From the NCBI GenBank assembly GCA_014377015.1, contig JACMQL010000046.1:62001-126000 (forward strand): a DNA stretch of 64,000 nucleotides, read 5' to 3'. The notes below the pieces were generated by a model. It worked only from the letters and a program-made list of their open reading frames with translations. It searched no databases and was not told the DNA's origin. How positions within the stretch are numbered: position 1 is the stretch's first letter; each line of letters starts with the position of its first letter. This stretch comes from Actinomycetota bacterium (GTDB lineage: Bacteria; Actinomycetota; Actinomycetes; Nanopelagicales; Nanopelagicaceae). A program made the position numbers and the translations under genes. Positions 17,591 to 50,927 of this stretch are shown one piece after another.

Positions 17591-17593
17591 GCA

Positions 17594-19429: not shown

Positions 19430-19435
19430 TTTCCG

Positions 19436-19464: not shown

Positions 19465-19573
19465 GGAAGTGAGACCAAAAATGAAATTTGAGGCGATAAA
19501 AAGATGACGATCTAATATTGTTCTCTTATAGATGTCATATTGAACATTTCAATTTAGAGAAATGAGGATTGTT

Positions 19574-24292: not shown

Positions 24293-24313
24293 AAGACTGG
24301 AGATGGTGATTCT

Positions 24314-25429: not shown

Positions 25430-25439
25430 AAACGGGTAG

Positions 25440-26396: not shown

Positions 26397-26417
26397 ATCC
26401 GAGAGAGTGGAGTTGAC

Positions 26418-31785: not shown

Positions 31786-31821
31786 TTGACTGTTGTCATA
31801 AATATAAAGGAGATTTCGCCC

Positions 31822-32214: not shown

Positions 32215-32987
32215 GCCACATAAACGGCGGGCACTCCACCATAATCATCACGGGAGGCGGTAGCGGTTTAGGACTAGCCTCAGGTCGTCGGTTATTGACG
32301 GACTGGCCGAACGTACAAATTGTGTCAGCAGATATCCGTCCCGGTGAAATTGAATCATTACAGTCAGATTTTGGAAAAGATCGAGTCTTGTATGTAGAGG
32401 CCAACGTTGCGCATGTTGGTGCCGCCGCTAAGGTAGTCGGGCAGACCATAGCTTGGGCGGGCAGTCTTTCTGGATTGGTCAATTGCGCGGGTAACAGCAC
32501 AAACCACGCGAGCATTGATCTCACCCCTGAACAGTGGCGGGAAGTTCTCGATTGTCATCTCGATGGTCATTTCTATATGTGCCAAGCATTTGCGCGTTAC
32601 GTTATCGATGCGAATGCAAGTGGAGCGATCGTAAATTTCTCGTCGCTGGCGCATGCATTTGGTTGGCCGCGTCGACTTCCGTATTCCGTAGCGAAGGCCG
32701 GAATTGATGCGTTAACTCGCACTCTGGCCGTCGAATGGGCTGAATTCGGATTACGGGTCAATGCAATCGCCCCGGGGTACATCAACACGCCACTGGTCGT
32801 TAAAGCAACCGAGAATGGGTACTTGGATCCAACGATTGTGGATATGCATGCGATGGGACGTTTCGGCGACCCTAACGAGATCGCAACTGGCGTGAAGTTC
32901 CTTCTCTCCGATGATGCGAGCTTCATAACTGGCGAGATACTGACAATAGATGGCGGCTTCTCTGCCAAGAGAATTCCTTGGAAATGA
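32211..32987 (+). CDS. Short-chain dehydrogenase/reductase (SDR 3)
   Basis: 258-aa classical SDR with TGGGSGLG cofactor motif, NCAG, catalytic NFSSLA and YSVAKAG (YxxxK), and ending LTIDGGFSAKR. More similar to SDR 4 (34143) than to SDR 1/2. It overlaps ridA (ATGA) and enolase copy D (ATGA), so ridA, SDR 3, enolase D and likely SDR 4 form an operon. The substrate is unknown, likely a hydroxy or sugar acid. Confidence 0.87.
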   Translation: MSHINGGHSTIIITGGGSGLGLASGRRLLTDWPNVQIVSADIRPGEIESLQSDFGKDRVLYVEANVAHVGAAAKVVGQTIAWAGSLSGLVNCAGNSTNHASIDLTPEQWREVLDCHLDGHFYMCQAFARYVIDANASGAIVNFSSLAHAFGWPRRLPYSVAKAGIDALTRTLAVEWAEFGLRVNAIAPGYINTPLVVKATENGYLDPTIVDMHAMGRFGDPNEIATGVKFLLSDDASFITGEILTIDGGFSAKRIPWK

Positions 32988-34105: not shown

Positions 34106-34142
34106 TTTCATTTACACTCATTGACGTAACGATTGGAGAACT

Positions 34143-34904
34143 ATGACGAGCTCACATCCAGTTGTACTTGTAACAGGTGGCGCGCGGGGGATTGGATTTG
34201 CGTGTTGTCAGGTTTTCTTTGAAGCTGGGTTCAATGTCGTTGTGACAGACATGGATGTCGAACTCGCCCAAAGTTCTGCCACCGACATAGATCCAATCGG
34301 GGAGCGCACCTTTGCACTTAAGATGGATGTTTCCGCAACCGAATCGGTGGACTCGGGAATGCGTGCGGCTGCCAAACATTTCGGGCGACTGGATGTTCTT
34401 GTGAATAATGCTGGCAATTTCTTGCAAGCCCCAACGGCCACCTACACCGATGCGGACTGGGATCTTGTTACGGGAGTTCATCTGGACGGTGCGTTTCGCT
34501 GCTCACGTGCGGCGTATCCATTTTTGAAAGAGTCAGCACAAAGTGCCATTGTTTCAATCTCCTCCATCGCCGCACGAATTGGGCTTCCCGGAAGACTTTC
34601 GTATTCTGTTTCAAAGTCGGGAATTGAGGCATTATCCCGAGTATTGGCTGTTGAGTGGGCGATGGACGGAATCAGAGTAAATTCGGTCGCACCGGGTTTT
34701 ACGCACACTCGAAGTTACGACGACATGGTGCGAAAGGGTATTTCCACCGGCGAAAAATTGATCGCCGCCGTTCCGATGAAACGTCTGGCAGATCCGAGGG
34801 AGATAGCTTCTGTCGTGCATTTTCTAGCATCACCTGCTGCTTCGTACGTAACTGGCCAAACCGTTGTAGTCGACGGCGGAGCGACAGTAGATATCAGGAT
34901 CTAG
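34143..34904 (+). CDS. Short-chain dehydrogenase/reductase (SDR 4)
   Basis: 253-aa classical SDR with [22 protein letters not shown] and YSVSKSG (YxxxK), and the ending [20 protein letters not shown] precedes the ATG at good spacing. It resembles 3-oxoacyl-ACP reductase-like sugar dehydrogenases. It ends the ridA operon and converges on the DppF-like ATPase gene with a 14-base gap. Confidence 0.88.
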
Positions 34905-34918: not shown

Positions 34919-35719
34919 TTACGATGCGTGTTTCTGATTTCTAACTGCCGCACCAAGGGCGCCAGGAATTGAAGCAAGAAGTTCTTGAGTGTAAGCCTGT
35001 TGCGGATGATTGAAGATCTCCTCAGTGTCGCCTGATTCTACGAAGACACCATCTTTCATCACGTAAACGCGCTTAGTGAGGTAGCGGATTACGCCGAGGT
35101 CATGAGATACCAGAACAATGGCTAGCCCCTGATGAAGTAACCCTCTGAATAAATTTAGCAATTGCGCTTGTGCACTTTGATCGATGGCAGAAGTGGGCTC
35201 ATCCGCCAAGAGGATCGAGGGGTTAGCCGATAGCGCACGCGCGACACTCACTCTTTGGCGCTGCCCTCCCGAAAGTTGGCGGGGCTTTTTGACGGCATCG
35301 AGTTGGGCGATGCCCATCTGTCTCAGTAATTCAAGAGCTTTCACGTCAGCTTCCGACTTGCTGCATTTGTTGTGGATTCGCACCGCTTCAGAAACCGCGC
35401 TGAGTGCAGTTAGTTGCGGATTCAAACTTGCGTACGGATCTTGAAACACCATCTGCACTTGGCGGCGAGCCTCGCCTGTATACGACCTATGGCCCTTGTA
35501 GAGCGGCTCGCCGTTGAAATACACCTGACCCGAGGTAGGTGTCTGAAGTCCGGCGAGCACGCGAGCGAGAGTTGATTTTCCGCTTCCGGACTCGCCGACG
35601 ATTCCGAGCGGTTCTCCAGCGGCCAAGGTAAGGGAAACATTCTTAACTGCCTCAACTTTGTGAGAACCAGTGCCAAACGTTACGCATATATCTCTTGCCT
35701 CAATAATATTTGTGCTCAC
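34919..35719 (-). CDS. Oligopeptide/dipeptide-type ABC transporter ATPase (DppF/OppF-like)
   Basis: 266-aa ATPase energising import. It has Walker A GESGSGKS, VFQDPYASLNP (the Q-loop pattern of OppF/DppF), signature LSGGQRQRV, Walker B ILLADEPTSAID and a switch His in LVSHDLGVI. It lacks the long C-terminal Cys-containing oligopeptide domain found in OppD-type ATPases. The start is GTG. It is the last gene of the minus-strand transporter operon, 2 bases after the DppD-like gene. Confidence 0.93.
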   Translation of the reverse strand: MSTNIIEARDICVTFGTGSHKVEAVKNVSLTLAAGEPLGIVGESGSGKSTLARVLAGLQTPTSGQVYFNGEPLYKGHRSYTGEARRQVQMVFQDPYASLNPQLTALSAVSEAVRIHNKCSKSEADVKALELLRQMGIAQLDAVKKPRQLSGGQRQRVSVARALSANPSILLADEPTSAIDQSAQAQLLNLFRGLLHQGLAIVLVSHDLGVIRYLTKRVYVMKDGVFVESGDTEEIFNHPQQAYTQELLASIPGALGAAVRNQKHAS

Positions 35720-35721
35720 TT

Positions 35722-36708
35722 TTAACCTTTCAACTTATCGCGATGAAGGCAAGCACTTTGATGCGAACCTCTCTCACCAAAGAGCGGTGGATGACTGCCG
35801 ACCTTGCAATCTTCTTCCTTGAAGGTGCACCGTTCGACAAAGCGGCAGCCAGGATTCCACTCACCAACTGAGGGAGCGTTTCCCAAAATAGTTACTAGTT
35901 CACTTCCCGGAACCGCAATATCTATACGAGACTGGTTGAGCGCCAAGGTGTAGGGATGCTTTGGATTAACCATCTCAGTCACCGAACCAACTTCTACTGT
36001 CGCACCCGCATGCATAACAACAACGCGATCGCATACGTCGTCGATAAGTGCAAGATCATGCGAAATAAGGATGATAGAAGTGCCGAAATCCGCGCGAATC
36101 TCTTGTAAAAGTTGCATGATCTGCGATTGGACGGTTACATCTAATCCCGTCGTGGGCTCGTCCGCGATTAACAACTTAGGGTTGCTGGCAAGAGCGCAGG
36201 CAATCATCACTCGTTGGCGCATTCCGCCAGAGAGTTGATTTGGATACTGCTTCATGACGGTATCAACGCGACGAATCTTTACTAGATCGAGCAGTCTCCT
36301 GGATTGCTCCGCGATAGTTCCTGGAGCCTCGCTTCGGCGTAGGGCTTCCGCTAGTTGCTGTTGGGTCGTTAAAACTGGATTAGGACCAGCAAGGGCACTT
36401 TGCGGAACGTAACCAATTGATTTGCCGCGCAGTTTCTTCCAATTCGTTTCGGATATTTGGGCGAGATCTTGGCCACCGAAGAGCACTTGTCCTCCGAGCA
36501 CCTTGGCTCCTCTACGTTCAAGAGTTCCGATGATGCTGCGGCACACCATGGTTTTGCCCGAGCCAGACTCGCCGACGATTCCTACCATTTCGCCTGATCT
36601 GACATCGAAATTGGCGTTGTCGACGATGATCAACGTTTCGCGCCGCGGGTGCGGGATTCCGATTTTGAGGTCGATTACCTGTAAAAGCGTCTCGTTTTGC
36701 TCACTCAT
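35722..36708 (-). CDS. Oligopeptide/dipeptide-type ABC transporter ATPase (DppD/OppD-like)
   Basis: 328-aa ATPase with GESGSGKT (Walker A), YVPQSALAGPNPVLT (Q-loop region), LSGGMRQRVMIACAL, Walker B LLIADEPTTGLD and ISHDLALI. The C-terminal oligopeptide-transporter domain has PGCRFVERC, EEDCK and a final Cys, which in homologues binds an iron-sulfur cluster. It pairs with the DppF-like subunit as a heterodimer. It overlaps the DppC-like gene by 4 bases. Confidence 0.94.
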   Translation of the reverse strand: MSEQNETLLQVIDLKIGIPHPRRETLIIVDNANFDVRSGEMVGIVGESGSGKTMVCRSIIGTLERRGAKVLGGQVLFGGQDLAQISETNWKKLRGKSIGYVPQSALAGPNPVLTTQQQLAEALRRSEAPGTIAEQSRRLLDLVKIRRVDTVMKQYPNQLSGGMRQRVMIACALASNPKLLIADEPTTGLDVTVQSQIMQLLQEIRADFGTSIILISHDLALIDDVCDRVVVMHAGATVEVGSVTEMVNPKHPYTLALNQSRIDIAVPGSELVTILGNAPSVGEWNPGCRFVERCTFKEEDCKVGSHPPLFGERGSHQSACLHRDKLKG

Positions 36709-37556
36709 TTTGAATTAGTCTCCCGAAGCCGGCGTTGAAGTCCCTCAGCAATAAATGCCACCGTGATACCTGCCCAGCACAATGCTAGGCCAGGAAAAAT
36801 CGTCGGCCACCAAGCAATCTGGAAAATTTGATTTCCATCACGAATCATTGCCCCCCACTCCGCTTGCGGTGGCGGAGCACCTAAACCGAGAAAGGAAAGT
36901 GCGGCGACAGCGATGATGACGATGATGAAGTCGCTCAAAGCATATGCACGAGTTTCCGAAGACACGTTGGGAATAATGTGCTTAAAAAGAATGCGCGCTT
37001 TTGAATAACCGAGAGTACGAGCAGCTTCGACGTAGCCTTGGTGGTTCACGACAACAGCACGAGTTCGTGCAATACGTGCGTAACGAGCCCAGTTTACTAA
37101 TGAGAGGGCAAAGATGATGCTCGTGATTCCTGGACCTATGAAAGCGATTAGCGCGATCACGAAAATAAGAAATGGAAATGCATTGATGCCATCGATAAGG
37201 GAGCCAACCACCGCGTTGATTTTCTTATTTCGTGAAATTCCCAAAAGGGTTCCGATAATGGTTCCGACTATTAACGGAATAGAGACCCCAATTAAGGCTG
37301 TGCCGAGGTCAATGAAGACTGCATCAAAAACGCGAGTAAAGACGTCCCGACCCAAGACATCAGTACCAAAGAGATAGTCTCTGCTTGGCGGAGCCATTGG
37401 CGGCAACCCTGGTTGATTTGGATCGTATTTGCTGATGACGGGGACAATGAGACCTGCAAGTACAAGTGCACCGAACATTGCGAAACCGGTATACAGACCG
37501 AATGTGCCTTCCCGAACTTGTCTGCGGGGCTCACCGTTCTTCTTTAGTTTCGTCAT
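36705..37556 (-). CDS. ABC transporter permease (DppC/OppC-like)
   Basis: 283-aa inner-membrane permease with about six hydrophobic segments and the DppC signature DYLFGTDVLGRDVFTRV. It also has the EAA-type loop EAARTLGYSKARILFKHIIPN that contacts the ATPases. It overlaps both neighbouring transporter genes by 4 bases, so translation is coupled. Confidence 0.94.
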   Translation of the reverse strand: MTKLKKNGEPRRQVREGTFGLYTGFAMFGALVLAGLIVPVISKYDPNQPGLPPMAPPSRDYLFGTDVLGRDVFTRVFDAVFIDLGTALIGVSIPLIVGTIIGTLLGISRNKKINAVVGSLIDGINAFPFLIFVIALIAFIGPGITSIIFALSLVNWARYARIARTRAVVVNHQGYVEAARTLGYSKARILFKHIIPNVSSETRAYALSDFIIVIIAVAALSFLGLGAPPPQAEWGAMIRDGNQIFQIAWWPTIFPGLALCWAGITVAFIAEGLQRRLRETNSK

Positions 37557-38563
37557 GAGAGAGTCACCCGGCGATCTAGTAAATATCCGAGCAGATCGCC
37601 GATGAAACTGAAGAATACGACGATTATTCCGAATATAAGCACCACGCCTTGTACGACGGGGTAGTCCTTGGTGTTAACGGCAGTGATAAGTTCGCGTCCA
37701 ATGCCGGGCAGCGAGAAGATCGTTTCCATGATCACCGTGCCGCCAATCAGTACTCCGACCATATAACTTAATAAAACAACGGTAGGCGCCAGTGATGGTC
37801 GCAGTAAGTAAGACCAGTAGAAGCGAATCTTGCTGACTCCTCTAATCACGCCGGTCTCCACGAATTCCTCGTCTAATGTGTCCATCAAGGAACTGTGCAG
37901 AACGCGAGAAAGTACCGGGACAAGTGAACCGCAGTTGACCAAGGCGGGTAGCCAGAGATATCTCAAATTGCCGGGGAAAGCGCCTTCATATCCTGCCGAT
38001 GGTGCCCAATTAAGTTTGATACCGAAATACAGCAAGCCAACCAGTGCAAGAAAAAATCCCGGTAAGGCGAGCGAAATTGAAGTTGAAGCTCTAAAAAAAT
38101 ATGTGACTAATTGGTTCTTGCTCAGTGCTACGGCAAGGGCGATTGGGATGGCCATAATGACGCCGAGTAAAATTGAAAGGGCGATCACCATAAGCGTGAC
38201 AGGCAGGTGAGTTCCGACGATGTCGGTAACAGTGCGACCCGAGTAAAAAGATTTTCCGAGATCTCCTTGAAAAATCCCCGTGATGAAGTTATAGAACTGT
38301 TGAAAGATACTTGTATCGAGTCCAAGCTCGTGACGCATCTGCTTAACCGAAGCCTCCGTTGCCTCGGCCCCAAGTGCGATTTGAACAGGGTCGCCAGGGC
38401 TCAGTCTTATCATCAAAAAGGCAATGACACTGACCCAAAAGCCGACGCTAAGTGAACGCAGGATGCGACCATAGAGCAGTCTGCGTAATGCGAGTCTATT
38501 TTTATCACGCGGCTCTTCGACAGCGACATCCGCCAGCGGGAAACTTTCGTTGATATTCGACAT
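37553..38563 (-). CDS. ABC transporter permease (DppB/OppB-like)
   Basis: 336-aa permease with the hallmark early MIRLSPGDPVQIALGAEA segment and an EAA-like loop near GVSKIRFYWSYLLRPSL. Six transmembrane segments are visible, ending in DLLGYLLDRRVTLS. The cytoplasmic N-terminal extension of about 40 residues is a little longer than usual. It is separated from the binding-protein gene by a 118-base region with a strong stem-loop. Confidence 0.94.
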   Translation of the reverse strand: MSNINESFPLADVAVEEPRDKNRLALRRLLYGRILRSLSVGFWVSVIAFLMIRLSPGDPVQIALGAEATEASVKQMRHELGLDTSIFQQFYNFITGIFQGDLGKSFYSGRTVTDIVGTHLPVTLMVIALSILLGVIMAIPIALAVALSKNQLVTYFFRASTSISLALPGFFLALVGLLYFGIKLNWAPSAGYEGAFPGNLRYLWLPALVNCGSLVPVLSRVLHSSLMDTLDEEFVETGVIRGVSKIRFYWSYLLRPSLAPTVVLLSYMVGVLIGGTVIMETIFSLPGIGRELITAVNTKDYPVVQGVVLIFGIIVVFFSFIGDLLGYLLDRRVTLS

Positions 38564-38619
38564 TACTTCCTTCTCTTGCTGAACTAAATATTCATAAGTA
38601 AGCGAATTTTGAAAAACGT

Positions 38620-38663
38620 AATGATTGGCGCGGGGTCACTTTCGCAACCCCACGCCAATCATT
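38620..38663 (-). terminator. 17-bp stem-loop between binding protein and permease genes (attenuator or mRNA-stabilising hairpin)
   Basis: AATGATTGGCGCGGGGT (38620-38636) pairs with ACCCCACGCCAATCATT (38647-38663) around a 10-base loop. The single mismatch becomes a G-U pair only in minus-strand RNA, the direction of the operon. It is followed on that strand by ACGTTTTTC. The position, after the highly needed binding-protein gene, suggests partial termination or protection of the upstream mRNA. Confidence 0.85.
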
Positions 38664-38681
38664 CTCATTACATTTCTACTT

Positions 38682-40256
38682 TTACTTCAGCGCAGGAGTC
38701 TGCTGAACGTAGTAGGTGTCATTACCCTTAACGTTTTGGAAAACATTCTGAGGAAGACGAGTTGCTCCATAAACAGAGCGTTGTCCAAGCGGGATATGTG
38801 CTGATTCATCCCAGATTGCCTTTTCAACTTGTGCAATCAAAAGACGCTTGCCAGAAGTTGGTGTTGCGTCGATCTGGTTGAGCAACGCGTCATTGGACTT
38901 CGATCCAGCCCAAACAGTCCACGCACCAGTTCCACCGTAATATGTGCGAAGAATCAGGGTTGGGATCTGACCGGTTGCACCCGAGAACTGAACTTGGAAG
39001 TCACCGGAAGATTGAGCTGCTGATCCAACTGCATCAGCTTGTGGAATCACAGTTGCACTGATTCCGATCTTCTTCCAGTCAGATGCGATCATTGATGCTG
39101 CATCTCCCCATCCTGGGCGGTTGAATACCGTCAGGTTTATTGGGAAGCCCGCTGCATAGCCTGCATCTGCCAACAGCGCCTTAGCCTTAGCAATATCCTG
39201 CTTGTTTCCGCCAGGTCTAGCGCAGGATCCAAGCGGACTTGATGCCCAAGTGATTGAACAAGAGGGCTTCACATCGCCAAAGAAAGCAACTTTGCCCATT
39301 GCCGCACGGTCAATTGCAAACGACATTGCTTGTCGAACGCGAACATCGCGCCAAGGCTTGCCTTCTGTCATTGAGCGCAAATTGAAGTCGAGCGTGAACG
39401 TTCCCTGGAGCTGTACTGGAATTCCACGGAACAGAGCCTTGCTCTTGAGTTGACCACGTGCGATAGCGGCAGGCATGTCGAATGCATAATCGATTATGCC
39501 TTGGCTTAGTGCGATGACACGGGTAACAGGATCTGGTACTGCGAGGAACTTAATTTCTTTGACAACTGGCTTAGCCCAATAATTTGGGTTAACGATGACA
39601 TTGAAATCATCATCTCCAGGAGTCCAAGACTTAATTTCATAAGGTCCTGCGCTTAGTGGCTTGATCCAGTACTTGTCATTTCCAACGACCTTGCTTCTTG
39701 GATTTATGAAGAAGTAAATGCTGGAAAGTGCGTACGGCAATTCATCGAAGCGGGTCTTCAAAGTGATAACAACTGTTGAGTTGTCAGGAGCCGTCATGTC
39801 CTTGACCGCTGAGAACACGGGTGGTGGAGCATTTTTGAGAAGTTCCCACATAAAGACCGCGTCGTCTGCTGTAACCGGAGTTACACCGTCTGAATACTTC
39901 AGGCCTGTCTTCAATTTGAGAGTCCAAGTGAGGCCGTCTGCGGACATTGAGTCTGACGCGACCAAATCGGGCTTAGGCGTTCCGTCAGCAGCAACTCGAT
40001 ATAAAGCTCCCTGAACGAGGAATTTAGTAATGTAATTCTGGTTTGTTGTGCGAACCGAAGACGTTGGGTCCAAGGTAACCACTTTGTTGACGAGCGCAAC
40101 CGTGATGAGATCACATGAAGCAGACGTCGTTGGCGTGCGGAGAGTACAAGCCGATCCCGTTGCACCGTTAGCTATAGGAGCTCCAATGAAGAGAGTTCCA
40201 GCTAGGGACGCAACTGTGATCGGGGCAATCCACGATCGCAATTTGCGAAGATTCAT
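38682..40256 (-). CDS. Extracellular solute-binding protein, family 5 (DppA/OppA-like)
   Basis: 524-aa secreted binding protein of SBP family 5. It has an N-terminal signal peptide with basic MNLRKLRS, a hydrophobic core and an ANGA-type cleavage site near residue 32; I see no lipobox Cys at the expected place, so it may not be a lipoprotein. The mature part has family markers such as LTWTLKLKTGLKYSDGVTPV, AGPYEIKSW and VRQAMSFAIDRAAM. The ligand is not predictable; family 5 proteins bind peptides, nickel, and also oligosaccharides. AGGAAGT precedes the ATG. It has its own good promoter. Confidence 0.93.
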   Translation of the reverse strand: MNLRKLRSWIAPITVASLAGTLFIGAPIANGATGSACTLRTPTTSASCDLITVALVNKVVTLDPTSSVRTTNQNYITKFLVQGALYRVAADGTPKPDLVASDSMSADGLTWTLKLKTGLKYSDGVTPVTADDAVFMWELLKNAPPPVFSAVKDMTAPDNSTVVITLKTRFDELPYALSSIYFFINPRSKVVGNDKYWIKPLSAGPYEIKSWTPGDDDFNVIVNPNYWAKPVVKEIKFLAVPDPVTRVIALSQGIIDYAFDMPAAIARGQLKSKALFRGIPVQLQGTFTLDFNLRSMTEGKPWRDVRVRQAMSFAIDRAAMGKVAFFGDVKPSCSITWASSPLGSCARPGGNKQDIAKAKALLADAGYAAGFPINLTVFNRPGWGDAASMIASDWKKIGISATVIPQADAVGSAAQSSGDFQVQFSGATGQIPTLILRTYYGGTGAWTVWAGSKSNDALLNQIDATPTSGKRLLIAQVEKAIWDESAHIPLGQRSVYGATRLPQNVFQNVKGNDTYYVQQTPALK

Positions 40257-40364: not shown

Positions 40365-40549
40365 CGTTTTTTTGTGTAACAATCAGGTATCAATTTACTG
40401 GAATCCAGAAATCGCAAGGTCGCTGAATGGATTGACAGATTTGTTTGGGAACGCCGAACACCTGCGCCACGATTGAGCGTGTTTGGGGAAAGTTAAGTGA
40501 ATTGAGCAGAACGAGTCCAGCGGTAGCGCGGGCGCATGGTGACGAGAAG

Positions 40550-41794
40550 GTGGGTTCGAAGTTGACGCGTTTCTCATTTACGGCACTCCGCAATCGTAAT
40601 TATCGAAACTTCTTTGTCGGTACGGCAATTTCGAATATCGGCACGTGGGTTCACCGCATTGGACAAGACTGGTTAGTACTTGAGTTGACCAACAGCGGTA
40701 AAGCACTGGGCATCGTCGTGAGTGCCCAATTTCTACCTGGGTTCTTCTTTAGTCTTTTTGGTGGAACTCTCGCCGACAAACTCGATCGACGAAGAGCACT
40801 TGTCGCAATAAATTTATTTGGGTGCGCAATCGCACTCACGCTCGGAATTCTAGTGATAAATGATATGGCTAACGTGATAACGGTGACCGTCGCGGCTTTC
40901 TTGCTCGGCACTTGCACCGCAATTGATGGACCGATTCGGCAGAGCTACTACGTAATACTTGTCGGCGAGAATATTTTGCCGAATGCGTTGGCGCTCAATT
41001 CGCTGAATATCAATATCGGGCGGCTCATCGGTCCCGTACTTTCTGGAATGTTAATCGAACGATTTGATACAGGTCCTTCATTCATCATTAACTCATTTAG
41101 CTATTTAGTCGTAGCTGCCACAGTATTCATGATTCGCCCTTCGGAGTATCAACTCCCACCTACCGTGAATAATCTGGAGAAAACTCCGAAAATTCGCGAT
41201 GGAATTGTTCACGTATATTCATCAAAAGAACTTTTTCTTTCAATTATTTGCGTGTCATTTCTTGCGATGTGGGGACAAGACATGCAAATCACATCCGCCA
41301 TGATGGCTAAAGAGACTTTCGAGCGCGGTGCAGCATCTTTCGGGTTACTCGGAACTGCTGTGGCACTTGGCGCAATTGCGGGTGCCTTAGTCATTTCTCG
41401 AAAGACGTCCCTACCTACAGTTCGCGATGTTGGAATCAAATCTCTTCTCATGGCCGGCGCTTGGTTTCTTGCCTCGCTTGCGCCGAACTTCACCTTATTC
41501 GCCGGTGCTCTCTTTATTTGCGGCTACTGCGCTATGGGAGTGAATATTTCGGGAAACGGAACTCTTCGGACTTATACCTCGCCACAATTCTATGGACGTG
41601 CTTGGGGTATCTACATATTTATGTGGCAGTCTCTAATCGCACTTGGCGCTCCGGTGCTCGGATGGATTAACGAAACATACTCGCCACGAATTGCGGTTGC
41701 CTTCGGTGCAACGATGGCGCTCCTAATGTCTTTATTTATTTTGCGAAAGTATTCGGCTCTGCATAACGATTTAGTACTGAAGGACTCGCATTGA
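40550..41794 (+). CDS. MFS transporter, MFS_3 (exporter-like) family, copy 1
   Basis: Twelve-TM-type membrane transporter of about 414 aa. It opens with FSFTALRNRNYRNFFVGTAI, followed by the TM1-TM2 segment SNIGTWVHRIGQDWLVLELT and the motif A-like loop GGTLADKLDRRRAL. These are features of the transmembrane secretion effector family (PF05977; EntS-like). I chose GTG 40550 (GGTGA upstream) because it fits copy 2's N terminus; TTG 40445, 40502 and 40562 are possible. It is divergent from the binding-protein gene, and its end overlaps the next ORF. It may export a by-product or import a substrate. Confidence 0.85.
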   Translation: MGSKLTRFSFTALRNRNYRNFFVGTAISNIGTWVHRIGQDWLVLELTNSGKALGIVVSAQFLPGFFFSLFGGTLADKLDRRRALVAINLFGCAIALTLGILVINDMANVITVTVAAFLLGTCTAIDGPIRQSYYVILVGENILPNALALNSLNINIGRLIGPVLSGMLIERFDTGPSFIINSFSYLVVAATVFMIRPSEYQLPPTVNNLEKTPKIRDGIVHVYSSKELFLSIICVSFLAMWGQDMQITSAMMAKETFERGAASFGLLGTAVALGAIAGALVISRKTSLPTVRDVGIKSLLMAGAWFLASLAPNFTLFAGALFICGYCAMGVNISGNGTLRTYTSPQFYGRAWGIYIFMWQSLIALGAPVLGWINETYSPRIAVAFGATMALLMSLFILRKYSALHNDLVLKDSH

Positions 41795-41856
41795 CAACAG
41801 TGAGTCGCAGTGCTTGGGTAAGAAAAGTATTTTGGCGCATGAAGGGTTACCTTAAG

Positions 41857-43284
41857 ATGGCATCTATCGATACACCGAATGCTCAAATAGCACCCAACAA
41901 AAAAATCTGGCGCGAAAATTTGAGTTCTCTTCGACTTGGCATCGCGCAAGTTGACGTGACTCCGCCGGTTGGAATTGAGTCAGGAGTGTGGGGTGCCAGC
42001 AAGCATTCAAGGTCAGAGTCGGTACACCATGGATTGTTCGTCACTGCCCTTGCACAACAAGATATCCACGGAAAGATCAGCTACATCACGGGAGCGGATT
42101 TGTGCGTCCTCGGATGTGTTGAATGCGCAGAAAATCTACTCGTCAATATTTCTACCAAGTTAAACATCAATAAAGATGATCTATTATTTAGTTCAAGCCA
42201 TTCTCACTCAACGCCGCTTCCGTGCATTCACCGAGCGCACAAGGACGGTCACGAACTGGTTCCAGGTTTTATCGAGCAGTTGGTTGACGGGACCGTGAAA
42301 GCGTGCGAGGAAGCCTCGTTCAATATTCAGGATGTCAATGTCACCTGGGCGTACGGAAAATGCGATCTTGCGGTGAATCGAGACCTACCGTGCGGCGAGC
42401 ATGGCGGGACACATGAAGTTGTGGCTTTCAATCCTGCGATCCTCGCCGATGACACGCTCACAGTCGGACGAATTGCCGACAAAAATGGCGAGGTAGTCGG
42501 GACGATAGCCAATTACGCATGTCATCCCACGACGCTCGCTTGGGACAATCGCGCAATATCACCAGATTACATAGGGCAGGCCCGTGAGTTGGTTCAGAAG
42601 GAGACGGGCGCTCCCATGCTTTTCTTACAAGGCGCTTCCGGCGAGCTATCACCTCGCGATCAATACAGCGGAGAGACTTCATTGGCTGACAAAAATGGTC
42701 GTAATCTCGGTCACTCGATTCTGGCCACTCTTGCATCGATGCAATCTCCAGGTCATGAACTCAGGTGGGTAGGAATTGTTGAATCGGGAGCCCTCCTGGG
42801 GGAATGGCGTGAGTTTCCAACTGAGGGATCGAGTGCGGTCATAAAGACTCGTCTTGATGTGAAGGTGCGTGTCAAGGAACTGAAAAGTATTGATCAGCTC
42901 CGTCAAGAATGGGCGGGCATCGACTCGGATGCACTTGAGGAGAGAATTTCTCGTGCCAAACGTTTGCGCATCGGATATGAGTCAAAGCAGATTACGTCGC
43001 ATCCAGTTTGGATATGGCAACTGGGTGATGCGATTTTTGTTGCGCAGCCAGGTGAGGCTTACTCCTATCTACAGACTGAATTGCGCCGACGTAATCCAGA
43101 TCGCGTTATCTTCGTGATGAATCTGACGAATTATCCAGGGCTTTTTTACTTACCAATACGTAGCGCATATGTAGCTCCTGCTTATCAGGCCTGGCAAACA
43201 CTGCTTGCACCAGGCGCAATCGAAGAAGTTGTTGACGTGACAGATAAATTCATAAAGGAATCAATTGGAAAGAGAGATAACTAA
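41857..43284 (+). CDS. Neutral-ceramidase-like (PF04734) hydrolase, copy 2
   Basis: About 475 aa, cytoplasmic by lack of a signal peptide. It has the family start LGIAQVDVTPPVGIESGVWG and the zinc-site motifs SSSHSHS, NYACHPTTLAW, AQPGEAYS and a Tyr-containing NYPGLFYLP. It is the only copy here that retains Ser at the nucleophile position (GASGELSPRD, compared with GDVSPN in true ceramidases). I chose ATG 41857, which aligns with copy 3's MASPK beginning; the ORF track starts at TTG 41791. It heads a three-gene tandem of homologues and follows the MFS gene closely, suggesting one operon. Confidence 0.82.
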   Translation: MASIDTPNAQIAPNKKIWRENLSSLRLGIAQVDVTPPVGIESGVWGASKHSRSESVHHGLFVTALAQQDIHGKISYITGADLCVLGCVECAENLLVNISTKLNINKDDLLFSSSHSHSTPLPCIHRAHKDGHELVPGFIEQLVDGTVKACEEASFNIQDVNVTWAYGKCDLAVNRDLPCGEHGGTHEVVAFNPAILADDTLTVGRIADKNGEVVGTIANYACHPTTLAWDNRAISPDYIGQARELVQKETGAPMLFLQGASGELSPRDQYSGETSLADKNGRNLGHSILATLASMQSPGHELRWVGIVESGALLGEWREFPTEGSSAVIKTRLDVKVRVKELKSIDQLRQEWAGIDSDALEERISRAKRLRIGYESKQITSHPVWIWQLGDAIFVAQPGEAYSYLQTELRRRNPDRVIFVMNLTNYPGLFYLPIRSAYVAPAYQAWQTLLAPGAIEEVVDVTDKFIKESIGKRDN

Positions 43285-43286: not shown

Positions 43287-44690
43287 GTGGCATCCCCAAA
43301 GTCTGATCTTCGACCTGACAAAACGATCTGGGCACCACAAAGTGCCCGCCTTACGGCTGGTGTTGCGCAAAGGGTCATTGATCCGCCGATCGGAATTCGC
43401 TCAGCGAGTTGGGGCGCGGCAAAACTTCATGTTGTAACTGGAATTCATAATCACATCACCACTACCGCGATGGTGGTTCGCGGCGAGGATGGTCTGGACA
43501 ATTATCTGGTTACCGTCGACTGGGGTTGGTGGCAAGGAAAGTCCGATGACCTGGCGGTTCGTGGCGAAATTATTAGGTTGTTAGGAATTGAAGAAAATCA
43601 ACTCTTGCTGCACCTGACGCATACCCATGCGGGTCCTACAACTGCTTCCGACGCCGCGCACCTAGATGGCGGAGATTTAGTCGCTGGATACCACGCCACG
43701 GCCATTGAAAAAATCGTTGAAGCTTGCCGCGAAGCTACAAGTACCGCGACTGTGGTTGATATTACGTGGTCATATGGAAAATGCGACCTTGCGGTAAATC
43801 GCGATCTGCCGTGCGGGGTTGAGGATGTTCTTGCGTATAACCCCGATGTGATTGCAGATGACACGCTTACGGTGGGTCGAATCTGCGATTCGAACGGGAA
43901 AATTATCGGAACTGTAGTTAATTATGCCTGCCACCCGACTACCTTGGCGTGGCTCAACAGCAAAGCCTCTCCTGACTTTGTCGGCGAGGCACGCGTAATG
44001 GTAGAAGCAAAAACTGGCGCTCCCATGCTCTTTCTGCAAGGGGCATCAGGTGACCTTGCGCCTCGAGATGGATTCTCTGGTGACACGAAAGTGGCCGACA
44101 AGAATGGTCGTATTCTCGGATTCGCAACTTTGGCAGTGTTAGAAAATATGCTCCCGCCTGCCACGCGAATTCGATTTACGAACACCGTTGAATCCGGAGC
44201 CTTGCTTGGAGAATGGACTCAAGAAGCGTTTATTGCCGCAGGTAAAACGGATCGCGTGCGTTTGGATATTGGCGTTCCATTACAAGTTCTACCCAGCATC
44301 GATGAACTTAAAGAGAGATGGAAAGATATCGACGCCGGCGCACGTGATACGCGCATAAATAGAGCCATGAAGTTACGTGCTGGCTATGTAATTGACGGAG
44401 CGGCCACACATCCAGTGTGGATTTGGATGTGGGGTGACGCAGTAATTGTCGCCCAGCCTGGGGAGGCATATTCGCAATTTCAAACTGAATTACGCCATCT
44501 GCACCCTGAGCGCGTGATCTTTGTGTTGAACTGCACTAATGGTCCTGGTTACATGTACATACCAACGCCAGAGTCGTACGAGCGGTTGAGGTATCAGGCC
44601 TGGCAGACGCTCCTGGCTCCTGGCGCACTTGCGAAGATTATTGCGGAGACATCGGCTGCTATATCGAAACTTCCAAATCCATCACCGTAA
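43287..44690 (+). CDS. Neutral-ceramidase-like (PF04734) hydrolase, copy 3
   Basis: 467 aa, clearly paralogous to copy 2 (shared YGKCDLAVNRDLPCG, NYACHPTTLAW and YQAWQTLLAPGA). The zinc-site motifs HLTHTHAGP, NYACHPTTLAW, AQPGEAYS and YMYIPTPESY are intact. The nucleophile Ser is replaced by Ala (GASGDLAPRD). GTG 43287 starts 2 bases after copy 2's stop and it ends overlapping copy 4 (TAATG). It arose by tandem duplication. The substrate is unknown; an amide or ester of a small hydrophilic compound is more likely than ceramide. Confidence 0.83.
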   Translation: MASPKSDLRPDKTIWAPQSARLTAGVAQRVIDPPIGIRSASWGAAKLHVVTGIHNHITTTAMVVRGEDGLDNYLVTVDWGWWQGKSDDLAVRGEIIRLLGIEENQLLLHLTHTHAGPTTASDAAHLDGGDLVAGYHATAIEKIVEACREATSTATVVDITWSYGKCDLAVNRDLPCGVEDVLAYNPDVIADDTLTVGRICDSNGKIIGTVVNYACHPTTLAWLNSKASPDFVGEARVMVEAKTGAPMLFLQGASGDLAPRDGFSGDTKVADKNGRILGFATLAVLENMLPPATRIRFTNTVESGALLGEWTQEAFIAAGKTDRVRLDIGVPLQVLPSIDELKERWKDIDAGARDTRINRAMKLRAGYVIDGAATHPVWIWMWGDAVIVAQPGEAYSQFQTELRHLHPERVIFVLNCTNGPGYMYIPTPESYERLRYQAWQTLLAPGALAKIIAETSAAISKLPNPSP

Positions 44691-46078
44691 TGACAAGTGC
44701 GCGACCGAAAGTAGATCGAATCAAATCTTCACTTTCGCGCGTGCAGATGGGAATTGCGCAAGCCGATATAACGCCGCCCGTAGGAATATCGGCAAACCCC
44801 TGGGGTAAAAGCACAACCGCCCTTTCAACAGGCATTCATCGGCCTTTGGTTGCAGTTGCGGCGTGCATCCGCGCAACTCGGGATCTCTTTATCGTCACTC
44901 TCGATTTGGGCTGGATTGGTTGCTACGAGTGCGATGTTGTTAATTTTCGGGGCCGAGTCGCACGTGAACTTGAGATTAGCATTGACGATCTACTTGTGAA
45001 TTTGAGCCAAACACATAAGGGACCACCATTTTGCATTCATGAGGCGCTTCGTGAAGGCAGAGAACTTGTGCCCGATTGGATCGAGATTGTGATTACTTCT
45101 GTAATTAATATTTGCAGATTAGCGCGCGAATCAGTGGAATTGACTGATATAACTTGGCAATATGGAAAATGTGACCTAGGAACAGTGCGCGAACTTTCGA
45201 TTGATGGCATTGAGTATGTTGGTTATAACCCCGGACTGAGTCCAGATGATGTGCTTGTTGTGGGGAGAGCGACAATAGAGTCCGGTCGAACGGTTGCAAC
45301 TTTCGTAAACTATGGTTGTCATCCAACGAGCGTTGGCTGGGAAAGTTCCTTAGTGAGTCCGGATTACGTTGGCAGGGCGCGCGAAATAATCGAAAACGAA
45401 ACTGGCGCGCCAATGATTTTTCTTCTAGGAGCCTGCGGAAATGTTGCACCGCGCCTTCAATACTCTGGAGATGTCACCATTGCAGATAGAAACGGCGAGA
45501 TGCTGGGGTATGCCGTTATGGCAACAATTGCAAACATGATGCCCCCGGCATCGGATCTAGCCTTTGAGCAAACGATAATTTCTGGAGCTTTGTTAGCACG
45601 TTGGATACCTCAGGCAATTGTGCCGAATTCTTGCGTTAATACGACCAAAATTTTTGCAGTACTTAAGCACAAGAAATTGCATACAAGAGAAGAGATGGAG
45701 AGTGCTTGGGCTCCTGTGACTGCATCCGCAGAATTTCTTGACTTTCGAATTTTTAAGCAATTTGAAATGCGCAAGGATTATGTTCGGGAAGGGGGAGTGG
45801 TCCACCATCCGATTTGGATCTGGCAACTTGGGGATGCCATTTTTATTGCACATTGTGGCGAAGCTTATTTGGAGATGGCGAGAGAGTTGAGATTCAGAAA
45901 TCCCGAACGCATGATCCTTTGGTTGGACATGACCAATGGTCCGGGCTACATGTATGTACCAACCGCTGCTGCCTACGATAGGGACTCCTATCAATCCCAG
46001 CAGTCTCTACTGGCCAGGGGATCCTTTGAAGAAATGCTAGAAATTTTAGATCAAAGCATCAAGAATCGGCGAGTCTGA
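44690..46078 (+). CDS. Neutral-ceramidase-like (PF04734) protein, copy 4, altered metal site
   Basis: 462 aa, third of the tandem. It keeps IAQADITPPVGIS, NYGCHPTSVGW, a Glu in HCGEAYL and YMYVPTAAAY. But the first zinc-motif His is changed (LSQTHKGP instead of HTHxGP), and the nucleophile region is GACGNVAPR, with Ala at the Ser position. GE is preserved. It may have a modified or reduced activity, or act as a partner subunit. It converges on the DoeB-like pair with a 2-base gap. Confidence 0.8.
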   Translation: MTSARPKVDRIKSSLSRVQMGIAQADITPPVGISANPWGKSTTALSTGIHRPLVAVAACIRATRDLFIVTLDLGWIGCYECDVVNFRGRVARELEISIDDLLVNLSQTHKGPPFCIHEALREGRELVPDWIEIVITSVINICRLARESVELTDITWQYGKCDLGTVRELSIDGIEYVGYNPGLSPDDVLVVGRATIESGRTVATFVNYGCHPTSVGWESSLVSPDYVGRAREIIENETGAPMIFLLGACGNVAPRLQYSGDVTIADRNGEMLGYAVMATIANMMPPASDLAFEQTIISGALLARWIPQAIVPNSCVNTTKIFAVLKHKKLHTREEMESAWAPVTASAEFLDFRIFKQFEMRKDYVREGGVVHHPIWIWQLGDAIFIAHCGEAYLEMARELRFRNPERMILWLDMTNGPGYMYVPTAAAYDRDSYQSQQSLLARGSFEEMLEILDQSIKNRRV

Positions 46079-46080: not shown

Positions 46081-47115
46081 TTAAGCTGGAAAGTCATCCG
46101 GAGATGCGTAATCGGGTCCGAGTACCGCGACGACATCTCCGATATTGACTCTTGGAAATCCCCGCATGACACCGATCATTCCAAATTGTTGGGCCAATAT
46201 TTGCACGGCAGGAGTGTCAGGGTGATCCATATCGTGGATTCTGCCGATTAAATCGCCTTTCTCAACCCGATCCCCGCACCCTTTGACATTCTCATAGAGC
46301 CCGCCATGAGTCGCGTGATGATACGAATGTGATCCACGCATGTCGATGAAGATTGGAGGAGTTAATCCTTGCTCAACACGAGAGAGCGCCTGCCCCTTAA
46401 TGACTTTGAAATGTAGAAGGGCGTTTCGGAGTCCATCCGTAGCAATTTGCACTGTTTCAAAAGTAGATACACCTGCGCCGCCGAGTTCGGTTGTAACGAG
46501 ACCCTTTCCCATTCTTTCGACGAGTCCGGGAAGAAGAGTTGTGGGATCAGTTCCTGGTTGCTCGGGAAATATAAGGTGATGGGAGGTGTTAAAACTTGTC
46601 ATATCCTCGATCATCCGTTGGCGTTGTTTTAGATCGGATGACCAGACCATATGCGAACAAGGAACAAAGTAATGACCGCGTCCTCCGCTATGGAGTTCTA
46701 CGACTGCGTCTGCAATTGGAAATAAGTCATAGCTGAGGTAGTAAGCCAACTTTTTGTGAACGCCACCATTCTCATCTCCAGGAAAAATGCGATTGAAATT
46801 TGTACCATCGGGCCATAACCGCATTCCAAATTTTGATGCTGTTTGCGAAAGGCAGGGAATGATGATTACTCGGCCTTGCACCATGTCAGGAGAGAGCGAA
46901 TTCGCAAGATTTGCAGCAGCGAACTGACCTTCGTATTCATCGCCGTGATTGCCACCCAATACCAGGACCGTGGGCCCATTTCCATTACTTATGCTGATGA
47001 TGGGTACATGGAAGGTTGCCCATCCGCTGTTATTGGTGGAGTCGCCGATTTTTAGATAACCAGAATTCTTCCCGGACAGGTTAAGGTCAAATGAACACGA
47101 GACCGTATTGCTCAT
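46081..47115 (-). CDS. DoeB-like deacylase (AstE/AspA zinc carboxypeptidase fold), copy 1
   Basis: 344-aa predicted zinc-dependent N-acyl hydrolase. It has the motif VLGGNHGDEYEGQ (zinc His and Glu), RVIIIPCLSQTA, NFNRIFPG and the second zinc His in ELHSGG. The pattern SGWATFHVPIISISNGNGPT closely resembles N-alpha-acetyl-diaminobutanoate deacetylase DoeB (ectoine degradation), but no other ectoine genes are present. A C-terminal barrel-like domain follows. I chose ATG 47115, matching the paralogue's start and lying 2 bases after its stop. Probably cleaves an N-acyl amino compound. Confidence 0.82.
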   Translation of the reverse strand: MSNTVSCSFDLNLSGKNSGYLKIGDSTNNSGWATFHVPIISISNGNGPTVLVLGGNHGDEYEGQFAAANLANSLSPDMVQGRVIIIPCLSQTASKFGMRLWPDGTNFNRIFPGDENGGVHKKLAYYLSYDLFPIADAVVELHSGGRGHYFVPCSHMVWSSDLKQRQRMIEDMTSFNTSHHLIFPEQPGTDPTTLLPGLVERMGKGLVTTELGGAGVSTFETVQIATDGLRNALLHFKVIKGQALSRVEQGLTPPIFIDMRGSHSYHHATHGGLYENVKGCGDRVEKGDLIGRIHDMDHPDTPAVQILAQQFGMIGVMRGFPRVNIGDVVAVLGPDYASPDDFPA

Positions 47116-47117
47116 CG

Positions 47118-48161
47118 TTAACCCGCCACTTCTTCCATTTGTTTCAATGAAGTGAAACTCTTGCCCACGACACAAACTACGTCGCCCGTTGTAACAGGAG
47201 GGAATCCTCGAATTACGCTGATGACCCCCGAGATCGCTGCCGTGACGTTCGTCGGCGCGACATCAGGATGGTCAAAATCATGAATCTTCCCGACAACATC
47301 GCCCGCATTAACGTGACCTCCCAAGGGGACGCAATTTTCATAAATTCCGGCTTTAGTTGCTGAAACGAAGCCCGCGGGATCCCTAAAATCAATGATTTTT
47401 GCGGATTTTAGTCCTTCCTTGACTCGAGAATTCGACTCTGTCTTGAGTACGCCGAAATCTTGCAAAAAATTTCGCAGCCCATCACCAATGATTTTTATAG
47501 TTTCTGGAGTCGAGTATCCGCTTCCTCCGAATTCACCAGTTGAAACTGACTTTCCCTGGCGCTCTGCCTCTCGATTAAGCAAGGCATAAGGATTCGTGCT
47601 GGGTTGCTCACCGCCGATCATGTGGACGCTCGTATTCCATGCCAACATATTTTTTATCATCTTTACTCGTCGTGCTGGATCGGCAACCCAAACCATATTT
47701 GAGCTTGGGATGAAGTACATGCTGCGACCCCCGCTGTGCATATCAAGTACCCCGTCACAAATAGGGAAGAGGTCGTTGCTCATGAAGAAAGCAAGCTTTT
47801 GGTCTAACGAACCATTTTCAACTCCAGGGAAGACACGATTAAAATTTGCGCCATTGGGCCATAGCCGAGTCCCTGCGCGGGAGGCTTCTTGCGAAAGACA
47901 GGGAATGATGATGACTCGTCCTGTGACTTCTTCTGGTTGAAGTTCACGAGAGAGGGAAGATGCCGCGATTTGGCCCTCGTATTCATCGCCGTGATTTCCG
48001 GCTAGTACCAAGACGGTCGGGCCACTTCCATTCGTGATCATCACGATGGGAACCTGAAAGGTCGTCCATCCGCTGTTGTTGGTTGAATCACCTATTCGCA
48101 GATATCCAGTTTGTTTTCCCGTAGCGTTGAAGTCGAAAGAACAAGTAACAGTTCCGCTCAT
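47118..48161 (-). CDS. DoeB-like deacylase (AstE/AspA zinc carboxypeptidase fold), copy 2
   Basis: 347-aa paralogue of the downstream copy, aligning along its full length, with VLAGNHGDEYEGQ, NFNRVFPG and DMHSGG zinc motifs. Start ATG 48161 is supported by alignment with copy 1 and by a TAAAGT box exactly 6 bases upstream, a leaderless arrangement; GTG 48167 is the ORF-track start. It is divergent from PF04734 copy 5 and heads a two-gene operon. The tandem pair may have two related acyl substrates or form a heteromer. Confidence 0.82.
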   Translation of the reverse strand: MSGTVTCSFDFNATGKQTGYLRIGDSTNNSGWTTFQVPIVMITNGSGPTVLVLAGNHGDEYEGQIAASSLSRELQPEEVTGRVIIIPCLSQEASRAGTRLWPNGANFNRVFPGVENGSLDQKLAFFMSNDLFPICDGVLDMHSGGRSMYFIPSSNMVWVADPARRVKMIKNMLAWNTSVHMIGGEQPSTNPYALLNREAERQGKSVSTGEFGGSGYSTPETIKIIGDGLRNFLQDFGVLKTESNSRVKEGLKSAKIIDFRDPAGFVSATKAGIYENCVPLGGHVNAGDVVGKIHDFDHPDVAPTNVTAAISGVISVIRGFPPVTTGDVVCVVGKSFTSLKQMEEVAG

Positions 48162-48284: not shown

Positions 48285-49676
48285 ATGTCATCACTCGAAG
48301 TAACGCCATTCGAAGGTCAAGCACTCATCGGAATCATGAAGCGAGAGATCACTCCACCTTTTGGAATTTATGGTCGAGTGTGGGGAGCATCAAATCATGA
48401 CAAATCTGAAGGTTCACATAAACCGCTTTTCGTAACCGCGATGTCTATGCAAACCGAATCTGATGACATGCCTGCTTTGCTGGTTGCCATCGACGCCGGC
48501 TCCCTCGGAGATTTAGATGGCCGAGAGGGTGAACAACTGCGTGAATCGGTTAGGACGGCCTTGCAAATAGATGACGCTCATTTGATGATCGCCTGTTCTC
48601 ACACGCACGCATCTCCGTGGTTTGCTCGAAGTCGATCCGCATTGCCAGGTGGTGACCTAATAGAAAGATATTTAGAGGAAATTGCGACGGCAATTATCGA
48701 CGCTTGTAAAGAAGCACTGGCCCATCGTGTGACTTCAATTGTCACTTTCTCAGCGGGCAAATGCGCACTCGCCTCCAATAGAGACTTGATCGATCCCCAC
48801 AATCCAGATCGTTTTTTGACTGGATTTAATCCAGCAGTCGAAGCAGATGACACCCTAATGGTGGGACGAATTGTGCGAATTTCAGATGGCGAAACCATTG
48901 GAACGTTGGTGAACTATGCCTGCCATCCGACATCTCTCGGGTGGGGCAACAAGTTGATCTCTCCAGATTATGTGGGAGCCATGCGCGAGAAGATTGAAAG
49001 CGAAACTGGCGGGGTGCCTTGTCTTTTTCTGCAAGGGGCGTCTGGAGATTTAGGACCTGCTTATCAATACGTGGCAGAAACAGACATTGCTGATGCACAT
49101 GGAAAGCAACTGGCCTATTCGAGTTTAAGTGCGTTAACTGCCATGTATCCGGCCGGCAATAAATTTGCATTTATCAGATCCGTTGAATCTGGAGCACCGC
49201 TTGGATATTGGGAGCCCGTTCCTTACGAAGTGCCTAAAGAACTTTTAGTAAGTGCTGATCGAGTATCACTTCCCGCCAAAGTCTGGCCATCCGTAGCGGA
49301 GCTTGATTCTCAGATAGCGGTTACCGCAGACTCATTCGCAAAGGAGAGACTTTTCCGTAAGCGTTCTATTGCGAAGTTGATGTTAACGGGTGGCGAGTTG
49401 GGTCTGACCATTTATGGATGGCGACTGGGAAAGATTCTTTTTGTCGGCGTCCAATGTGAGGTTTATTCCATTTGGCAGCAAGATTTACGGGAGATGTTCC
49501 CGGATTATGCGATTGTTGCCATTACTTGCGTCGATTATGAGGCCATCGGTTATGTAGTTCCCGACGAATTACATGACTTGAATCTCTATCAAGCATGGCA
49601 ACCTCCATTTGATAAAGGTGTGATGGGCGCTCTCTTTGCAGGAAGTTGCCAGCAAATTAGGAAGATACTTTCTTAA
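48285..49676 (+). CDS. Neutral-ceramidase-like (PF04734) hydrolase, copy 5
   Basis: 463 aa when started at ATG 48285, which sits 6 bases after a consensus TATAAT; the ORF-track start at 48111 would run across the divergent promoter region. It has ITPPFGIYGRVWGASNHDKS, CSHTHASPW, NYACHPTSLGW and a Glu in GVQCEVYS, where copies 2 and 3 have PGE. The nucleophile Ser is Gly (GASGDLGP). It matches copies 2-4 more than copy 1. It lies between the DoeB-like pair (divergent) and the second MFS gene (25 bases downstream, same strand). Confidence 0.82.
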   Translation: MSSLEVTPFEGQALIGIMKREITPPFGIYGRVWGASNHDKSEGSHKPLFVTAMSMQTESDDMPALLVAIDAGSLGDLDGREGEQLRESVRTALQIDDAHLMIACSHTHASPWFARSRSALPGGDLIERYLEEIATAIIDACKEALAHRVTSIVTFSAGKCALASNRDLIDPHNPDRFLTGFNPAVEADDTLMVGRIVRISDGETIGTLVNYACHPTSLGWGNKLISPDYVGAMREKIESETGGVPCLFLQGASGDLGPAYQYVAETDIADAHGKQLAYSSLSALTAMYPAGNKFAFIRSVESGAPLGYWEPVPYEVPKELLVSADRVSLPAKVWPSVAELDSQIAVTADSFAKERLFRKRSIAKLMLTGGELGLTIYGWRLGKILFVGVQCEVYSIWQQDLREMFPDYAIVAITCVDYEAIGYVVPDELHDLNLYQAWQPPFDKGVMGALFAGSCQQIRKILS

Positions 49677-49700: not shown

Positions 49701-50927
49701 TTGACAACGATCGGGGTCTATCTGTTCACCTCCTTTAAGTTCTTTAATTTCCGATTGGTGTTCACTTACAGCACTTTGATGAGCATGGCTGGGTGGGCAC
49801 ATCAGGTGACGATGGATTGGCTGGTTCTTAGCCTGACTGGCAGCGCGGCCGCGTTGGGAGGAATGGTCGGAGTTCAACTCGCTCCCTACATCATTCTTTC
49901 CCTTGTTGGTGGAGCAGTTGCAGATCGATTCAATAAACGAAATTTTCTCATGCTTGTCTGTGCCGTAAATTCAGGCTTTGCATTCATGCTCTTCACTTTA
50001 TTTCACCAAGGTGCGCTGACATACTCTTTTCTATTACTTGTATCCGTGGTCGTGAGCACGCTAAACGCAATGGAAAGTCCCGTCCGAACTGCCCTCTCTG
50101 TCGAGGTGGTCCGGAAGGAGAACCTGGCGAACGCGATTGGTCTCAATTCTGTTACGTACAACGTGGGTCGGCTACTCGGGACTTTGTCTGCCGGATTTCT
50201 GATTGCGCGCATTGACAATGGCGCGCCTTGGATGATGCTGGGCTTCCTTTACGCTGGCCTTGGTCTGTGCCTCCTATCCCTGCGCATACATGAAATTGAA
50301 ATTTCCGGTTTTGGATCCTCTAAGCCAGGCAGATTGATTGATGCAGTTAAGTACCTTCAACAAAAACCCGCCTTAATGCTCTCCATGATTTTGACTTCAA
50401 CTATCTGGGGATCGGGCATGCACTTCGGTCTCACATCTTCTCTGATGGTGAGGAAAGTTTTCATGCTCGACGCAGAGTATCTCGGATATATTGGCATGAC
50501 TGTTTCATTGGGATGTGTAGTGGGTGCCGCGATCGCCGCGCGTTGGGCCGTTCCTGGACACATCCCGCAATTCTCAACTATGTTGAAGAGTGGCATCGTG
50601 GTGGCCATCTTTTGGATAATTTCCGGAACCGTGACTTCGTTTTGGCTATATGCACTCTTTGCCGGCATAGCGAGCGTGTTTCATCTGACATTCATGGTGA
50701 CTTCAAATTCCTTAGTGGTTTCGGGTGCACCCGAAGATTTTCGTGGGCGTATTTACGGAATTTACTTATTTATTTTTTATCTCGGCGCCACTATTGGAAA
50801 TCCGTTGATTGGTAAAATCGCACAGTTATTTAACGTGAGAACCGCGATCGTCACTGGCGGTTGTTCCACTTTAGTTATTTGTACATTTCTTTATCTGAGA
50901 GAGCGGCGAAAACCTAAAATATCCTGA
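49701..50927 (+). CDS. MFS transporter, MFS_3 (exporter-like) family, copy 2
   Basis: 408-aa membrane protein homologous to copy 1: FKFFNFRLVFTYSTLMSMAG, HQVTMDWLVLSLTGSAAALGG and the motif A-like loop GGAVADRFNKRNFL. Several further hydrophobic helices follow. The start is TTG 49701, without a clear ribosome-binding site; no better in-frame start keeps TM1. It is likely co-transcribed with PF04734 copy 5. The two MFS genes bracket the PF04734/DoeB cluster. It ends at the base before azlD, where the core genes resume. Confidence 0.82.
   Translation: MTTIGVYLFTSFKFFNFRLVFTYSTLMSMAGWAHQVTMDWLVLSLTGSAAALGGMVGVQLAPYIILSLVGGAVADRFNKRNFLMLVCAVNSGFAFMLFTLFHQGALTYSFLLLVSVVVSTLNAMESPVRTALSVEVVRKENLANAIGLNSVTYNVGRLLGTLSAGFLIARIDNGAPWMMLGFLYAGLGLCLLSLRIHEIEISGFGSSKPGRLIDAVKYLQQKPALMLSMILTSTIWGSGMHFGLTSSLMVRKVFMLDAEYLGYIGMTVSLGCVVGAAIAARWAVPGHIPQFSTMLKSGIVVAIFWIISGTVTSFWLYALFAGIASVFHLTFMVTSNSLVVSGAPEDFRGRIYGIYLFIFYLGATIGNPLIGKIAQLFNVRTAIVTGGCSTLVICTFLYLRERRKPKIS

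Follow-up and report, generated by a model that had tools for sequence, protein, structure and literature searches.

The window (the whole 64,000-nt stretch of DNA that we analysed) carries two adjacent genes on the minus strand, which we call A1 and A2, and both encode DoeB-like zinc amidohydrolases of the PF24827 family. A1, the upstream member (47118-48161, 347 aa), and A2, the downstream member (46081-47115), each begin with ATG, and the A2 start codon lies just 2 bases beyond the TAA stop codon of A1. A sequence-only reading had picked out this pair as neighbouring DoeB-like proteins with GNHGDEYEG and HSGG motifs, and this was borne out by the open reading frames at these coordinates, by the motifs themselves (together with NFNR.FPG and the catalytic Glu of T.E.GG) and by matches to PF24827 AstE_AspA_cat that pass the Pfam cut-off (99 bits for A1, 91 bits for A2). 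The best-scoring named family is TIGR02994, or DoeB, at 226 (225.5) bits for A1 and 234 (234.3) bits for A2, both under the curated cut-off of 402.7 bits. The two proteins are 55% identical to each other, and their nearest solved sequence is 3cdx (216 bits for A1, 215 bits for A2), while EutE/DoeB structures match them at 169-190 bits. In addition, the predicted structure of A1 (pLDDT 92) confirms the PF24827 AstE/AspA superfamily fold, with a TM score of 0.89-0.90 to EutE/DoeB (6twm) and of 0.88 to 3cdx. Promoter and terminator scans of the sequence flanking the pair gave signals at chance level.

Copies of the ceramidase-like family PF04734 had also been said to lie on both sides of the pair, and they do: CER1 (41791-43284), CER2 (43287-44690) and CER3 (44690-46078, convergent with A2) on one side, and the short CER4 (48285-49676, divergent from A1) on the other, all on the plus strand. 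CER1, CER2 and CER4 score above the PF04734 cut-off of 32.1 bits; CER3 falls below it, though it can be aligned with the other CERs and is 34% identical to CER1. A distant relative, CER0 (29302-30741, minus strand), is also under the cut-off and lies beside a phosphotriesterase-family, lactonase-like hydrolase (PTE, 28372-29286, minus) and a creatininase-family hydrolase (CRN, 30919-31725, minus). Two MFS transporters conserved in the unit, MFSa (40445-41794) and MFSb (49701-50927), are both on the plus strand, and an Opp/Dpp-type ABC importer with an SBP_bac_5 binding protein (38682-40256), two permeases and two ATPases occupies 34919-40256 on the minus strand.

The pair belongs to a far larger conserved island than the earlier reading had recognised, a catabolic island of about 37.5 kb (13721-51236) between dapB and azlD-azlC-thyX-dapA. 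Its remaining genes include a RidA family protein, SDR3, a divergent enolase-superfamily protein (MR4) and SDR4 at 31786-34904 (plus); the beta and alpha subunits of a 2-oxoacid dehydrogenase E1, MR2, a DAPDH-like protein (PF19328), MR3 and SDR2 at 22039-28341 (plus); and MR1, a LacI regulator, an MmgE/PrpD-like protein, SDR1, a Gfo/Idh protein, an L-fuconolactonase-like amidohydrolase and a CoA-transferase III at 13976-21926. There are four SDRs in all, and of the MR proteins one is divergent and three are nearest to sugar-acid dehydratases, with scores that lie far under the equivalog cut-offs. PF19328 is the native amine dehydrogenase family (PMC11164908). For MR3, MR1 and the creatininase-family protein, comparison with the PDB pointed to no substrate. 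The island holds no peptidase, and a search of the window for tRNAs came back empty.

A branch apart from the ectoine deacetylases

TIGR02994 stands for DoeB/EutE, the N-alpha-acetyl-L-2,4-diaminobutyrate deacetylase (6twl, 6twm), which A1 and A2 resemble in fold and in zinc and catalytic residues at about 31-35% identity. In a tree of 115 relatives, all 50 of the proteins encoded beside DoeA form one clade, and 36 proteins from the window's order form a clade apart from these DoeA-linked DoeBs. When the tree was rebuilt with 80 rows, the window clade had a support of 100/100 and was joined only by sequences from G471 (a member of another actinobacterial family), Acidimicrobiia, Rhodoferax/Rubrivivax and Devosia. 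The ectoine hydrolase itself, DoeA (TIGR02993), was not found in the source genome (1.72 Mb, 90.5% complete) or in any of the 296 genomes of the order, which upholds the earlier claim of a pair without ectoine hydrolase, and the genome has no above-cut-off match to EhuB, the ectoine-binding protein model. DoeC and DoeD are members of large generic families, and a full ectoine set elsewhere in the genome was sought through the marker gene doeA; none came to light. Conversely, PF04734 genes were seen at none of the 50 DoeA loci, within the flanks retrieved.

At the level of individual residues, alignment places all of the zinc and catalytic residues of DoeB/EutE in both A1 and A2; H57, E60, N108, R109, H142 and E210 (A1 numbering) are retained in every DoeB and window-clade sequence that covers them. 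Two other positions, Asp149 (of HSGG..LD) and Arg298, are invariant across 48 true DoeBs and are replaced in the A1/A2 group, where nearly all members have Tyr or His at position 149 and most have His at position 298, and an additional EQP segment is found at 185-187. Since the catalytic residues are kept while these pocket residues are lost and a segment is gained, we infer that A1 and A2 share the chemistry of DoeB and act on a different substrate. They would have the aspartoacylase/DoeB fold and work in the cytosol as N-acyl (amide) hydrolases with a single zinc ion, with amide chemistry also expected on the substrate that we propose below.

Unlike DoeB/EutE, these deacylases are found as tandem paralogues. 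Deacylase genes of this type occur in 21 of the 296 genomes of the order, 16 of which have at least two copies, and the remaining five, every one from genus g14, have a single copy. The rebuilt tree assigns A1 and A2 to separate, old groups of paralogues (support 100/98 and 97/96), so the duplication is older than the spread of the pair across genera. A2 clusters with another genus, g6 (100/99), and A1 chiefly with its own genus (93/89), a mosaic that suggests recombination within the tandem. In g14 the single deacylase adjoins an SDR (L115-L118), and the stretches retrieved around it (L115-L118 and L122) showed no PF04734 gene.

These observations allow two alternative views of the pair to be weighed. 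That A1 and A2 are true DoeBs, acting on N-acetyl-diaminobutyrate set free elsewhere, is highly improbable: TIGR02994 is indeed their top named family, and fold and catalytic residues are shared, but 226 and 234 bits fall well short of a cut-off of 403, DoeA is missing from 296 genomes, the proteins sit in a different clade, and both DoeB-invariant residues are substituted. Ectoine degradation is accordingly rejected on the sub-cut-off scores, the missing DoeA and the separate clade, and a non-ectoine role is well supported, in keeping with what the sequence-only reading had proposed. A second view makes A1 and A2 a single hetero-oligomeric enzyme instead of two enzymes for two steps, and here our doubts are milder, as the genes lie in tandem 2 bases apart, stay together in 16 of the 21 carrier genomes and belong to ancient paralogue clades; against this, each protein has a complete active site and a single copy suffices in genus g14, so that we regard one joint enzyme as rather unlikely. 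The completeness of both sites also led us to reject the idea that one member of the pair is a dead pseudo-enzyme, and it fits two substrates or two steps.

Conserved gene order and the PF04734 partners

The tie between the deacylases and PF04734, which the earlier reading had proposed to check by co-occurrence, holds at the level of whole genomes and of gene order, and outside the family too. PF04734 is carried by 23 of the 296 genomes of the order and both genes occur together in 19 (Fisher p 4e-24, a value that ignores the relatedness of the genomes). The order Opp ABC-MFSa-CER1-CER2-CER3-A2-A1-CER4-MFSb recurs in the window genome (G000) and four others of the genus (G278, G274, G264 and G271). 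In other genera the neighbours of A1-A2 are RidA-SDR3-MR4, LacI-MR1, CER0, the Opp transporter and genes of the creatininase and PTE families. In G140, CER1-3 and the creatininase/PTE set surround the pair. Close homologues of the creatininase-family protein (E < 1e-90) are found in 15 genomes, all of them PF04734 carriers. Further afield, two A1-like genes occur in G471 along with a CER-like gene, MR and Opp genes; in Roseiflexus (Chloroflexota; L040 and L027) a PF04734 gene overlaps the start of a DoeB-like gene, accompanied by a second PF04734, an SDR and a creatininase, with Opp and an MR as well in L040; and in an acidimicrobial genome (L008) the deacylase adjoins PF04734. The lone deacylase of g14, which is not beside PF04734, counts against the link. 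Taken as a whole, the association of deacylase and PF04734 is well supported, as is the membership of A1 and A2 in the catabolic pathway of the island.

The ceramidase-like proteins themselves are best described by comparison with neutral ceramidase (2zws, 4wgk). Neutral ceramidases are the sole matches to the predicted fold of CER1 (pLDDT 90, query TM 0.66), and what CER1-CER4 have in common with them is the fold of the N-terminal catalytic domain and, CER3 apart, the zinc-ligand pattern. The positions of 2zws that we take to be its zinc ligands align with the His of S-H-T-H, the His of C-H-P, the Glu of P-G-E and a Tyr. In contrast, identity to neutral ceramidase is about 15%, the C-terminal domain is missing (the CER1 model has 477 aa, against 643 aa) and no signal sequence is evident by eye in these short proteins, for which reasons CER1-CER4 are probably not lipid ceramidases. 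NF041649, with a cut-off of 1200 bits, gives 24 bits for CER1 and no match for the other CERs. Only CER1 always has the Ser of the SP motif, which is also present in part of CER2. In CER3 and all 12 of its orthologues, Gln replaces the first zinc His, and CER3 is possibly a non-hydrolytic or altered-metal member. With one zinc ligand gone from CER3 and the Ser constant only in CER1, not every PF04734 member need be an amidase. A search of the literature on PF04734 gene clusters and on the zinc residues of ceramidases yielded nothing usable.

The insertion site differs among relatives. In G036, dapB and azlD are adjacent, and this genome has a copy of the unit elsewhere; G260, G269 and G273 have short, different inserts at dapB-azlD; and G278 and G271, like the window, have the unit directly upstream of azlD-azlC-thyX. 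Since the site is thus empty, differently filled or unit-bearing from one relative to the next, the unit is a movable catabolic block.

A candidate pathway and its rivals

The deacylases form a separate branch that is co-inherited with ceramidase-like proteins, a peptide-type importer and sugar-acid enzymes, and on this basis they probably strip acyl groups from a nitrogen-containing nutrient other than ectoine. We favour, with reasonable though by no means full confidence, the reading that A1 and A2 represent a pair of N-acyl hydrolases, paralogues of ancient origin, in a non-ectoine pathway that degrades an N-acylated, sugar-acid-like compound. As to the compound, an N-acylated amino-sugar derivative is our leading guess, and it is put forward tentatively. 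In the scheme that we have in mind, the Opp-type ABC importer would take up an N-acylated, carboxylated, sugar-acid-like compound, the amide bonds of which would be cleaved by the ceramidase-fold PF04734 enzymes and A1/A2, with ring esters or amides opened by the PTE- and creatininase-family hydrolases. The amine-dehydrogenase-like protein, together with RidA, might dispose of the amine so released, and the carbon skeleton would then pass through SDR oxidation, enolase-superfamily dehydration and the products of the E1 and CoA-transferase genes; the order of these steps is likewise conjectural. More speculative again is the wider notion that small actinobacteria and Chloroflexota have in common a conserved catabolic pathway not yet described, in which ceramidase-fold amidases and non-ectoine DoeB-like deacylases work on an N-acylated amino-sugar-acid-like compound.

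One competitor to an acylated sugar acid is a peptide. If Opp imports a peptide, A1 and A2 could cut an isopeptide or dipeptide-like bond in it and the PF04734 proteins could take off its N-terminal acyl groups, and there are precedents in CphZ, which acts on cyanophycin dipeptides, and MpaA, which acts on murein peptides. In favour are the Opp/Dpp type of the importer, the structural similarity of CphZ to A1 (TM 0.69) and a weak match of MpaA to A1 at 26 bits; but that score is far under the cut-off of 157, identity to CphZ is just about 15%, the neighbours are mostly sugar- or acid-type enzymes and there is no peptidase among them, all of which makes a peptide substrate unlikely. Far less probable still is the view that the genes share no common pathway and are a chance pile-up in a genomic-island hotspot. 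The dapB-azlD site is certainly variable, with other cargo or none in relatives, but the gene set turns up again at different sites in other genera (G036 and G201), as well as in a further actinobacterial family and in Chloroflexota, and we reject a chance neighbourhood on the strength of co-occurrence and conserved order.

Related clusters and wider relevance

These findings matter in part for how such genes are named. Automatic annotation would lead to 'ectoine deacetylase' and 'ceramidase', both of which are probably misleading here. For two little-understood groups of hydrolases, the cluster offers a concrete route to the substrate in one go: the DoeB-like branch outside ectoine breakdown, in which the 3cdx type may be included, and short PF04734 proteins of bacteria. 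The cluster also suggests an exchange, among genomes of 1.2-2.2 Mb, of a large catabolic island devoted to one specific nutrient that contains nitrogen.

For both groups there are related operons. The gene for 3cdx itself, a PF24827 protein from Cereibacter sphaeroides plasmid pA, has MR-family, SDR and Opp-type ABC genes alongside, as A1 and A2 do, but it belongs to another clade, is present as a single copy and has an M81 metallopeptidase where A1/A2 have PF04734. Operons of this type, with two MR genes, two SDRs, the M81 metallopeptidase and the Opp-type importer, were seen on alphaproteobacterial plasmids of Cereibacter and Martelella (L156 and L162). Short PF04734 genes, for their part, were seen in a conserved operon of Nitratireductor, Devosia, Martelella and Microvirga (L154, L157, L158 and L160). 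This alphaproteobacterial operon also has NagA-like (184 bits, cut-off 226) and NagB-like (110 bits, cut-off 237) genes, SIS-isomerase genes, a sugar ABC importer and LacI, and the NagA-like, NagB-like and SIS genes beside a short PF04734 point to amino sugars. It shares with the island a short PF04734 in a catabolic setting that also includes an ABC importer and a regulator of the LacI type, whereas its importer is of the sugar type. Its PF04734 protein is about 25% identical and it has no DoeB-like gene, two points that count against the amino-sugar guess.

Around the Rhodoferax relative of A1 (L010, 7417-13305), M24-like and sarcosine-oxidase-like genes lie near, as judged by eye from their N-termini. 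MR1 (13976-15103) matches 3msy, 3no1 and 4h83 at about 535 bits; these structures are named by family alone (mandelate racemase/muconate lactonizing enzyme) and may gain a pathway context through the island to which MR1 belongs.
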